From the NCBI RefSeq assembly GCF_014695585.1, contig NZ_JACJON010000067.1, forward strand, positions 1-64,000: DNA of 64,000 nt. The letters are read 5' to 3'. This DNA comes from Microcoleus sp. FACHB-831 (GTDB taxonomy: Bacteria > Cyanobacteriota > Cyanobacteriia > Cyanobacteriales > FACHB-T130). Below, in pieces: positions 41,494-44,378 of the stretch (the stretch's first letter is position 1; every line of letters begins with the position of its first letter). Made by a program: the position numbers and the translations under genes. The notes beneath the pieces are model-generated. The model did not search any database. It had not been told where the DNA came from and saw only the letters and a list, made by a program, of their open reading frames with translations.

Positions 41494-41799
41494 TTAACAA
41501 GGGCGCCCATTACCGCGCAGGTGTTGATAGTTGTACAAGGCGTAGGTGTTAAACATAGCTCCTACTAGGCTACAGGTGAAGCCAATAACTAGGCTTCCTT
41601 GTAGGGGACACCCACTACCGAAGACTGCGAGGAACTGCATAATCTGCGTTGCGGCAATTTGCGCGATCGCTTCTATGACGGGAATGTAAGTTAGTAGCGA
41701 CAGGCTTGCCAACAAAGCGGCTATTAACACCATAGGGGCTGAAAAGCTCAGCAGGCTTGTCAGCAGTAGGGAACGGAGAAAGGTAGGAAAGAAAATCAT
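41494..41799 (-). CDS. Small hydrophobic membrane protein, unknown
   Basis: About 101 residues with roughly three transmembrane segments. A Cys occurs in G-S-G-C-P-L-Q and another at the end (R-P-C). No family recognised. The ATG at 41799 is preferred to a TTG at 41847. Coding is supported by the regular hydrophobic blocks and absence of a better frame; it could still be chance. Confidence 0.5.
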   Translation of the reverse strand: MIFFPTFLRSLLLTSLLSFSAPMVLIAALLASLSLLTYIPVIEAIAQIAATQIMQFLAVFGSGCPLQGSLVIGFTCSLVGAMFNTYALYNYQHLRGNGRPC

Positions 41800-41847
41800 G
41801 AGCAGGGCTGCACTAGAGAGAGGACTAAGAAAGGTCTGTGACAACAA

Positions 41848-42343
41848 TCCTTGACAACTTCTACAATAGGCGCGATCGCTCCTCGTGGGTAAATATGTCA
41901 GAAATCTTAAAACAACATTAAGAATCTTGGTTAAAGTCCGTAACTATATCTCAGATTATTTTGCCCTTTTTAGAGCAGGGATTACTCAGATTTTACTGTT
42001 ACCGTCCACATATAGCGCTTTTTTATTATATGCCTGCTATATATAGCGTTTAAAAATTTAAACTAGCCAACGCTAGGAAAGTTTACAGTTTCGAGGAAAA
42101 TTCATTTTACTCAACTTTGTTACTGAATGGATATTAAGAGTAGTTACAACAATGTTGCAATAAAGGCAATACACGGGTATATGACGCTGCTCGAAGCAAA
42201 GCAGTAACAAACCGTTGGGCGCGATGATACTGCAACAGCACTCATCGAGTTCCTTGGGGATATTGCAGCGAACTAGCCATGCATTCAGCAAATGATATTT
42301 ACGGAACAGGTTTTGCTGCCATCAAAATAGATAACGATGAGTT
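41848..42343. other. Spacer, no gene seen
   Basis: 496 AT-rich bases. An imperfect direct repeat of TATATAGCG-like words lies at about 42009-42051. A minus-strand frame of 72 codons near 42073-42291 has no recognisable sequence and is not called. Confidence 0.45.
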
Positions 42344-42658
42344 ATGGATAAAAAGGCAATGTCTGAAACAACAGTTCGAGTTGTGGCTCGTGTTGTGGCA
42401 CTTCCCGACAAAGTAGAACAAGTAAAATCCATTTTGCTCCACATAATTGAGCCGACGCGCCAAGAGCAAGGTTGTATCAGCTACGAACTTTTGCAGAATC
42501 AACAAGAGCCGAGGGATTTTACATTTGTTGAGGAGTGGGAGAATGATGCGTTATTACAGGTGCATCTTGCGTCAGCGCATATCCATGAGGCTGGTAAAAA
42601 ACTCAACGGTTTAGTAGTAGGTGAACCAGACATTCGCATTTATCGGTTAATAAAATAA
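42344..42658 (+). CDS. ABM-domain protein (putative quinol monooxygenase)
   Basis: 104 residues, one ABM domain: V-V-A-R-V-V-A-L-P-D-K-V-E-Q-V, then E-Q-G-C-I-S-Y-E-L and F-V-E-E-W-E-N-D-A-L-L-Q-V-H-L-A-S-A-H. Relatives include YgiN quinol monooxygenase and heme-degrading IsdG-like enzymes, many of unknown role. A second ATG at 42359 is behind AAGG and may be the true start. The HetZ-like gene is 177 bases downstream. Confidence 0.85.
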   Translation: MDKKAMSETTVRVVARVVALPDKVEQVKSILLHIIEPTRQEQGCISYELLQNQQEPRDFTFVEEWENDALLQVHLASAHIHEAGKKLNGLVVGEPDIRIYRLIK

Positions 42659-42835
42659 GCTGCGTTAAAAATACTTTTTTTCCGGATGACTTAGTACAAA
42701 CTCTGTATCGGCTGGTAGCACCTTGAACAAAGACAGCCAAACCAACCTCACACGCCGATTTGACGCATAGCCATGTTGGGTGTGGGCTTTGGTGGGGTGG
42801 GCTAACCACATCTGTAAGGGAGAGCTGCCAAGGGT

Positions 42836-43474
42836 ATGGACACGATATTTCAACTGCTGTTGAGCGAACTACAGCAGTCTACTCGTGTGAAAAAGCAGAA
42901 CTGCCGGGACGTAGCAGAGCGTTTAGCTACAGAAGTTATGGAAATCTGCACTGGAAGCGATCGCATAATCGCTTCCGGTGAGATGGAAACTTGGGCAACT
43001 TTGCTAGCTCAGCATCGTTTACAGCAATGTTTGCGCTATTACAAATTGGGTTCTTGCCAAGGTCGGGTGCAATTAAATAACACTTTAGGCGGGCTTGTTT
43101 CTGTTTATTTCACTATCTGGCTAAGGCACTTGAGCGAACAAGCTCAACTAACAAGGCTCGAAGATTTTTTGCAGGGATTTTATATGGAGGCGTTAAACAC
43201 CTTCCGGCAAGAAGCGCATTTGAGCAAAACCTATCATCCCCAAACTTTATTAGAACTAGCAGAATACATGAGCTTTACAGAGCGCTACGCCAAGCGCCGC
43301 ATTCCTTTATTCAACGAACTTTTAGGGAATATATCACCCCAAGATATATCATCGCTTGAGACTCCAATGCCTGATTTTTGGATATTTAATCATCCAGAAT
43401 TTGCCGAATATCATCAGCGCAGGCAAATATTGATCGTCCTGCGGGCGCAAACTTTTTTGCGAGAAGAAACTTAG
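42836..43474 (+). CDS. HetZ-like N-terminal domain protein
   Basis: 212 residues, largely helical. I recognise a block close to the N-terminal half of HetZ: A-Q-H-R-L-Q-Q-C-L-R-Y-Y-K-L-G-S (58-73), then Q-G-R-V-Q-L, E-D-F-L-Q-G-F-Y-M-E-A-L-N (109-121), and Y-H-P-Q-T-L-L-E-L-A-E-Y-M with F-T-E-R-Y-A-K-R-R-I-P-L (133-158). The end, L-I-V-L-R-A-Q-T-F, matches the point where HetZ, as I recall it, continues into a further domain; here it stops after six residues. HetZ controls heterocyst differentiation, and relatives occur in filamentous species. This version also has an extra segment (about 159-193). Role unknown. Confidence 0.75.
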   Translation: MDTIFQLLLSELQQSTRVKKQNCRDVAERLATEVMEICTGSDRIIASGEMETWATLLAQHRLQQCLRYYKLGSCQGRVQLNNTLGGLVSVYFTIWLRHLSEQAQLTRLEDFLQGFYMEALNTFRQEAHLSKTYHPQTLLELAEYMSFTERYAKRRIPLFNELLGNISPQDISSLETPMPDFWIFNHPEFAEYHQRRQILIVLRAQTFLREET

Positions 43475-43670
43475 CTCATAACATCTTAGATAAGTGAATT
43501 ATTGTACCCAAGTGCCATAAGAATTTAGCGTAGTTAACAGGCATTTTTCAGTCGGAAACAAACTAAGAGGAAAATGGCATTGCTTGGGTAACTGGCACAC
43601 TTTTGGCAAAAATGACTTTAGTGCCGATTGTGGAAATTTTGATGGCATTGTTGGAGCGATCGCTCTAAGT

Positions 43671-43931
43671 CTATAGCACCCGCCGTAAAGTTTGGGTTTT
43701 TGGGTTGACGATATTGGGTGCGTTCTCGAATGAGTCGTTAGCAGCTGTAGAGTTTAGGTAAGCTGGTTGAGGTACAGGTGCAGTAGCGAGTTGCCGCGCT
43801 TTATCTTTAATTGACTTGAGTACCAGACGCACAACCCAGGAAGAGAGGTGGGGATTTTCGTCTATTTCGACAATGAGAGCATCTAAATCGTTAATAACGG
43901 CTATCATTGGTAGGTTTATATCTTTTTGCAT
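43671..43931 (-). CDS. Small hydrophilic protein, unknown
   Basis: About 86 residues. The ordered core is A-V-I-N-D-L-D-A-L-I-V-E-I-D-E-N-P-H-L-S-S, then V-V-R-L-V-L-K-S-I-K-D-K-A-R, suggesting a compact helical protein. The rest is Ala/Pro/Asn-rich. The ATG at 43931 is preferred to the upstream GTG at 43955. Convergent with the HetZ-like gene. No known motif. Confidence 0.6.
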   Translation of the reverse strand: MQKDINLPMIAVINDLDALIVEIDENPHLSSWVVRLVLKSIKDKARQLATAPVPQPAYLNSTAANDSFENAPNIVNPKTQTLRRVL

Positions 43932-43955
43932 GACTTTGCGGCTCTCTGTAGACAC

Positions 43956-44378
43956 ATTTGTTCTTGTTCTATATTTTTAAAATAAAAAATTCTCATAAGC
44001 CTCGTGCCAGATGATGTGTCACTATATCAGGCGACAGGAAAATTAAGTCATCTATGCTTGTTGTCCTCTAAGGGGTAATATCGTTGCTAATGCTTTGGGG
44101 ATAAGGATTTGAGCCGCTGGTGATAAGGTAGCGATCGCTATCGGAGAATTGATCGCAGTGGACAATTACGCAACCGTCACCCCAAGGAAAAAGGATACGC
44201 GATCGCTTCCCCCGCCGCCTTAGTTGACCAACTTACTTAGTTTTACCCAACAAAGTCCTTACCCATCTGCAACAGCAGGACTCCCTATAAACTTATGGTT
44301 GGTTAGAATTCAAAAATCCCCAATTAGTAGTGCAAAAGTCGGTTATCCTTTAGCCAGGTTTGGAGTCAGCATTACATA
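43956..44378. other. Spacer upstream of the MlaE gene
   Basis: 423 bases with an extended HIP1 palindrome (TAGCGATCGCTA at 44129-44140). No coding frame is convincing. It should hold promoters for both flanking genes. Confidence 0.45.

Follow-up and report, generated by a model that had tools for sequence, protein, structure and literature searches.

The 212-residue open reading frame described here, from Microcoleus sp. FACHB-831, is a HetZ paralogue that has been cut down to the N-terminal domain and has no C-terminal domain. The gene, called short hetZ below, lies in the window that was analysed, a stretch of 64,000 nucleotides at the start of contig NZ_JACJON010000067.1. The NCBIfam profile for HetZ (NF037963) aligns to residues 4–159 over profile positions 1–156 of 366 with an E value of 1.1e-66. 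This rules out a missing HetZ hit, and the two blocks that a first-pass annotation of the DNA had recognized as the N-terminal half of HetZ are located at residues 60–73 and 140–151. The score of 225.2 bits is below the curated whole-protein cut-off of 550, and the profile of HetZ-related proteins (NF037964, E = 2.2e-55) also matches below its whole-protein cut-off; both outcomes are expected since the second half of the protein is missing. A search of Pfam gave no match at E values up to 10. The ATG is the first start codon in an open frame of 218 codons. The first-pass annotation had raised the prospect of a pseudogene created by a frameshift in one strain; no frameshift or internal stop was seen over the 212 codons, although the gene is represented by one genome only.

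As had been noticed from the sequence, the frame ends at the RAQTF stretch: HetZ homology restarts at LIVLRAQTF and is followed five residues later by the stop. The extra segment reported at about residues 159–193 is indeed present, with exact bounds of 161–193 (33 residues). No continuation follows the stop. When the C-terminal portions of HetZ and of HetZ-related proteins were searched by tblastn against the whole 64-kb window, the best match outside the ORF had an E value of 0.27. The features of the gene and its surroundings are collected in Table 1.

The predicted model of the short protein has a mean pLDDT of 82.5 and a pTM of 0.75, with 131 residues at 90 or above and a helical N-domain. 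By blocks, the pLDDT is 84–98 as far as residue 150, falls to 78 in residues 151–160 and is below 50 in residues 174–196. For comparison, the model of a full-length HetZ from a Tolypothrix brevis metagenome-assembled genome (L048, calculated with 33 sequences; mean pLDDT = 74.1, pTM = 0.45) may be considered in terms of an N-domain (residues 19–173), a low-confidence region (176–238), and a helical C-domain (240–386). The short ORF ends in what is the low-confidence linker of the full-length model and thus retains one whole domain. The gene singles out the HetZ N-domain as a unit that may be specified by itself. As a truncated paralogue from a single genome, short hetZ is in itself a modest finding.

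Table 1. Positions of short hetZ, its parts and its neighbouring features in the window, and of the region-4-like domains of a full-length HetZ
Feature	Position	Strand	Basis
Segment with ABM gene, short hetZ and 94-aa ORF	41848..44378		Neighbour comparison, four same-family genomes
ABM-domain gene upstream of short hetZ	42344..42658	+	PF03992, E 9.9e-17
TCCGGA (DIF1-like), ~150 nt upstream of short hetZ	42681..42686	+	
Candidate ribosome-binding site AAGGGAG, 13 nt upstream of the ATG	42816..42822	+	Read from sequence
212-aa HetZ N-domain protein, whole ORF including stop	42836..43474	+	
HetZ-like N-terminal domain, residues 1–158, six helices	42836..43309	+	Alignment, model
Residues 81–108, which hold six of the nine N-domain changes at family-invariant sites (H81N, S82N, Y89S, R90V, R104Q, I108L)	43076..43159	+	
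33-residue insert, residues 161–193, without counterpart in the other 31 aligned family members	43316..43414	+	
Residues 194–212, kept start of HetZ linker (RRQILIVLRAQTF), then stop	43415..43471	+	
Two tandem region-4-like domains, protein residues 239–314 and 328–390	L048:4947-6140		Full-length HetZ

A full-length hetZ, which the first-pass annotation had proposed looking for, is present elsewhere in the genome. It encodes a protein of 387 amino acids on contig C39, 61% identical to the short protein over residues 2–158, with a score of 648 bits that exceeds the HetZ cut-off. The genome also encodes a full-length HetZ-related protein of 403 amino acids on contig C74, with an N-domain that is 47% identical to the short protein. 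Compared to HetZ (NF037963), the short protein belongs to the same clade and has the homologous N-domain in common, but it is without the PatU3-binding, region-4-like C-terminal half and contains the insert. From the HetZ-related family (NF037964) it is separated by clade. Downstream of the hetZ gene on C39, and overlapping it, lies a 352-aa ORF that matches no Pfam or NCBIfam family and that we take to be patU by its position. Short hetZ, by comparison, does not adjoin a putative patU: it is followed by a 94-aa ORF and then by MlaE.

The first-pass annotation had named as options a separate regulator, a partner or inhibitor of a full-length HetZ, and a truncated copy, and the sequence by itself does not decide between them. 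The reading that we favor, with a probability of roughly 45%, is that the short protein is a re-specialised paralogue, most likely a weak competitor or modulator of full-length HetZ that acts through a partner of the N-domain. Regulators that have been truncated and antagonise the full-length proteins to which they are related are a general kind. The short protein, which likewise keeps one domain of a multidomain regulator and has a full-length relative in the same genome, may be of this kind. According to the proposed mechanism, full-length HetZ would act as sigma factors do. The -35 box (DIF1, TCCGGA) would be recognised by the two region-4-like domains at its C-terminus, through which PatU would also bind or hold HetZ, and RNA polymerase or another partner would be contacted by the N-domain. 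The short protein, with the N-domain kept, would be unable to recognise the -35 box and would escape PatU; it would occupy the partner of the N-domain and in this manner compete with full-length HetZ in the same cell. A bolder formulation, in which HetZ constitutes a divergent sigma family of filamentous cyanobacteria that has tandem region-4 domains and is the missing reader of DIF1 promoters, PatU is anti-sigma-like, and the short gene encodes a natural sigma lacking region 4, a competitor that is blind to both the -35 box and PatU and tunes HetZ, is doubtful as a whole.

A role in heterocysts is unlikely for short hetZ in this host, since hetR is present and no nifH was found in the genome over the cut-off. 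A single hetR match was identified (L181 959-1888) and is named HetR by NCBIfam. The best nifH match reached 220.7 bits against a cut-off of 394 and is presumably a chlorophyll-synthesis relative. Judging by this gene content, the host probably neither fixes nitrogen nor forms heterocysts. Leptolyngbya BL0902 is described in the available text of PMC11298460 as likewise having hetR and hetZ-patU without a nif cluster.

HetZ-family matches, with the host genome included, were found in 35 of 60 relatives, 248 of 388 genomes of the order, and 200 of 388 genomes of the class; the order and class samples overlap, the host genome is counted in both, and no other species of the host genus is among the 60 relatives drawn. 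The best match among the relatives is 65% identical to the N-domain of the short protein. The best non-self scores, 207.5 bits in the order and 207.7 bits in the class, belong to matches that extend no further than residue 158; the frames around them are 391 and 409 codons long. A scan of GTDB contigs identified 36 loci that encode relatives, all 36 of them in frames of 360–548 codons. No second short form was present among the matches listed for the order and class samples (388 genomes each) or in the GTDB scan, and the idea that the short form is conserved across filamentous cyanobacteria was not supported. On the genomes searched, a conserved class of short HetZ proteins was rejected: an orthologue of the short form should outscore full-length HetZ, and the best non-self match listed is a full-length frame. 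By the matches listed the short form is rare, which is a statement of rarity and not of absence, and low-scoring short copies may exist beyond them.

All matches were inspected in 26 order genomes, comprising 24 with at least three matches and two with frames shorter than 300 codons. Among these were hetZ-family genes that are split or contain stops (G098, G125, G361 and G034), a piece at a contig edge (G212) and weak matches in frames of 315–320 codons (G142 and G182), and no lookalike of the window gene. In G125 (C1:3107011-3108848) and G098 (C1:980825-982792), the match to the N-domain of a hetZ-family gene is split by about 1.4–1.5 kb, perhaps by an insertion element.

A split with support of 100 divides HetZ from HetZ-related proteins both in the tree of all alignment columns and in that of the N-domain, and the short protein groups with HetZ in each. 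Within the HetZ clade its position is unsure from these alignments. The end branch in the N-domain tree is 0.72 for the short protein and 0.21 for the host's own HetZ, and three full-length HetZ rows in the same tree have longer branches (0.90–0.94). In a tree of 56 rows, which were left from 69 after removal of six near-duplicates, two uncuttable rows and five long rows, the branch of the short protein is 0.92. An approximately unbiased (AU) test did not reject the short protein and the host's own HetZ as sisters (p = 0.098).

The identity of short hetZ and the host's own hetZ by codon position is 0.71/0.76/0.38 over 146 codons, with an amino acid identity of 0.60. Fourfold sites are identical at 9 of 38, compared to 22/56, 23/53 and 23/54 between the host's own hetZ and three hetZ genes of the same family. 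Whether short hetZ is a recent duplicate of the host's own gene is answered both ways by these sequence comparisons: the fourfold agreement is low, yet the AU test retains the pair. The codon-position and fourfold patterns together suggest protein-level selection for much of the branch.

The short protein alters 11 of 53 sites that are invariant in 31 relatives, while each relative alters 0–3 in a leave-one-out comparison; for the N-domain alone, 9 of 47 invariant sites are altered. Four of the altered residues were arginines. The changes are clustered, with six of eight consecutive invariant sites altered (permutation p = 0.006, or p = 0.013 and 0.025 for two other window sizes, all sizes having been picked after seeing the data). 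The EDFLQ, FTERY and KRR blocks are intact. Neutral drift simulated at an excess divergence estimated as 19% of codons left the frame without a stop in 8% of runs; the other shares tried left it stop-free in 25%, 13% and 4% of runs.

These data bear on the possibility, which we regard as a serious but less favored one, that short hetZ is a remnant in decay: a single event would have removed the C-terminal half of an extra hetZ copy, which has since been drifting without function. The many changed invariant sites and the long branch would also fit relaxed constraint. The restriction of the short form to one genome among those searched, by the matches listed, is in keeping with decay, as are the share of neutral simulations that left the frame open and the low confidence with which the insert is modelled. 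Decay would account less readily for 212 codons without a stop or frameshift, for the excess of changes at third positions, or for the uneven distribution of changes along an N-domain that retains three intact blocks. In our judgement, function is likelier than decay.

The ABM gene precedes short hetZ, as the first-pass annotation had stated, on the same strand and at a distance of 177 bp. In four genomes of the same family (G001, G003, G004 and G005), the left neighbour and MlaE are separated by approximately 350–540 nt as measured from tblastn ends, the left neighbour being a homologue of the 117-aa ORF at 41494–41847 that is matched from residue 37. In the host, the distance from the 117-aa ORF to MlaE is 2531 nt, or approximately 2640 nt by the same tblastn-end measure. 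Neither the ABM gene, short hetZ nor the 94-aa ORF was detected in the intervals of those four genomes at an E value of 1e-3. From the longer host interval and the contents missing in its four relatives, roughly 2.1–2.3 kb appears to be lineage-specific at this place. In G006, from the same order, the interval is approximately 1.7 kb with a partial left match, and in G008 only MlaE was matched; G002 and G007 were left out of the comparison. The segment showed no clear terminal repeats such as an element would have. The 94-aa ORF inside it (window 43671–43955, minus strand) has no Pfam or NCBIfam match.

The presence of the ABM gene, short hetZ and the 94-aa ORF together in a segment missing from four genomes of the same family might suggest a neofunctionalised regulator that is independent of HetZ, in which the N-domain and insert have found a new partner, perhaps tied to the adjacent ABM gene. 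The rewriting of a conserved patch and the gain of a 33-residue insert would be consistent with such a change. However, the 177 bp between the ABM gene and short hetZ and the lack of a significant homologue for the insert argue against it, and we consider it improbable. The last alternative, a sequencing or assembly artefact that splits a full-length hetZ, is scarcely credible: although the genome is a draft of 85 contigs with 3.77% contamination, full-length hetZ is intact on another contig, no C-terminal half is present in the 64-kb window, and short hetZ is found on a 404-kb contig near MlaE and HSP70 genes.

With respect to the insert, a search with the 55-residue tail outside the host genome identified no significant homologue (best E = 0.015). 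An origin from an M15 dipeptidase was considered and rejected, as the tail hits, which lie in M15-type ORFs at four of five loci opened, were weak (E of at least 0.015). A profile made from 34 relatives scored the tail above 2000 shuffles, yet at 9.2 bits, and the whole protein at 5.8 bits. After allowing for selection, the apparent M15-dipeptidase likeness of the insert and tail (window 43316–43471) is weak and not significant. A DNA search of the host genome identified only a 43-nt stretch in common with hetZ.

The sigma-like design of HetZ is a more interesting lead than the short gene. A Foldseek search with the full-length HetZ model placed sigma and transcription-initiation chains on top, with a best E value of 0.04. 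By VIA-align, residues 240–309 of the L048 HetZ superimpose on region 4 of CnrH (Z = 9.2, 2.5 Å over 66 residues) and SigD (Z = 8.8, 1.8 Å over 61), residues 328–390 superimpose on that of WhiG (Z = 8.0, 1.4 Å over 62) and E. coli SigmaE (Z = 7.8, 1.7 Å over 63), and a likeness at Z of 8–9 extends to SigL, although the tool warns that Z scores of this size may reflect a common helical arrangement.

The sequences give a related picture. TIGR02937 was detected at E values up to 0.1 in 22 of 33 HetZ-family proteins (best 2.1e-7) and Pfam Sigma70_r4_2 in 13 of 33 (best 1.2e-6); the general family HTH_23 was also found in 13 of 33 (best 3.7e-4), and the sigma-family scores, among those listed, are below the curated cut-offs. 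When the C-terminal part of HetZ was compared by hhalign to 20 cyanobacterial ECF sigma factors, the second repeat aligned with an E value of 1.2e-5 (probability 81%) and the first with 0.004 (probability 8%) in a search with one target. Against a broader sigma set the E value was 0.0011, the two sigma sets of that comparison being the same 50 sequences. A local ECF profile reached a maximum of 10.4 bits on full-length HetZ (median 0.3), and a phmmer search of the host's own HetZ against PDB sequences returned no sigma chain (best E = 0.26). Taken in both fold and sequence, the C-terminus of full-length HetZ resembles region 4 of the ECF and sigma-70 sigma factors in two domains. The short protein, by contrast, is without region 4 and the -35 recognition that goes with it.

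The likeness of the N-domain to sigma region 2 is only suggestive. Residues 1–73 of the window protein align with region 2 of SigH at a Z of approximately 5, with a non-sigma chain first at 6.2. No Pfam sigma family was detected in 32 HetZ-family N-domains, and two NCBIfam sigma models matched one member each at an E value of about 0.03. The local ECF profile gave a median of 1.75 bits on N-domains and -0.8 on shuffles, with overlapping top scores. Neither the broader set nor the ECF set gave a significant hhalign match, and a Foldseek search of the PDB with the short-protein model had a best E value of 1.2. One helix (around residues 50–70 of the short protein) is overlapped both by the hhalign alignment in its best register and by a TIGR02989 match in the host's own HetZ (E = 0.02). 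At the level of sequence, a sigma region 2 in the N-domain received no significant support from hhalign, Pfam or the ECF profile.

The region-4-like domains of HetZ bear on the open question of which factor reads the DIF1 promoters, with their TCCGGA at -35 and unusual extended -10. Expression from promoters with this motif depends on hetZ "directly or indirectly", and in a yeast two-hybrid assay, deletion of HetZ residues 289–401 abolished PatU3 binding (both from the available text of PMC7377430). PatU3 is described in the accessible part of PMC12288457 as a limiter of HetZ availability. As given in the portion of PMC6133370 consulted, DIF promoters have a non-SigA extended -10, which in a synthetic version follows after 17 bp, and this 2018 paper calls the proposal of one among the known sigma factors "tempting". 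The word sigma is absent from the main text of PMC7377430 (2020) and of PMC6316738, and HetZ is not called a sigma factor in the available text of PMC12584617 and PMC4192349, within the open-access literature. The two tandem region-4-like domains are a possible explanation for promoters with a DIF1 box at -35 that depend on HetZ.

A DIF1 promoter for short hetZ itself was rejected. TCCGGA occurs 10 times in the window compared to 10.8 expected, and the copy upstream of the gene is followed by no clear AT-rich -10 after 17 bp. No TCCGGA was found in the 3.5 kb around the host hetR, in contrast to the DIF1 promoter predicted for patX-hetR of Leptolyngbya BL0902 (PMC11298460, available text).

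Mobile elements were also searched. One scan of viral contigs found no relative of short hetZ, none was found in phages at an E value of 0.01, and a BFVD fold search with the short protein produced no E value under 0.9. A plasmid search identified one record, with a full-length HetZ-family gene and no short form. This gene (L198 4860-6092), on the 38-kb plasmid pMIC7113.05 of Allocoleopsis franciscana PCC 7113, is annotated as a "hypothetical protein"; nearby is an AAA ATPase gene whose annotation refers to chromosome segregation.
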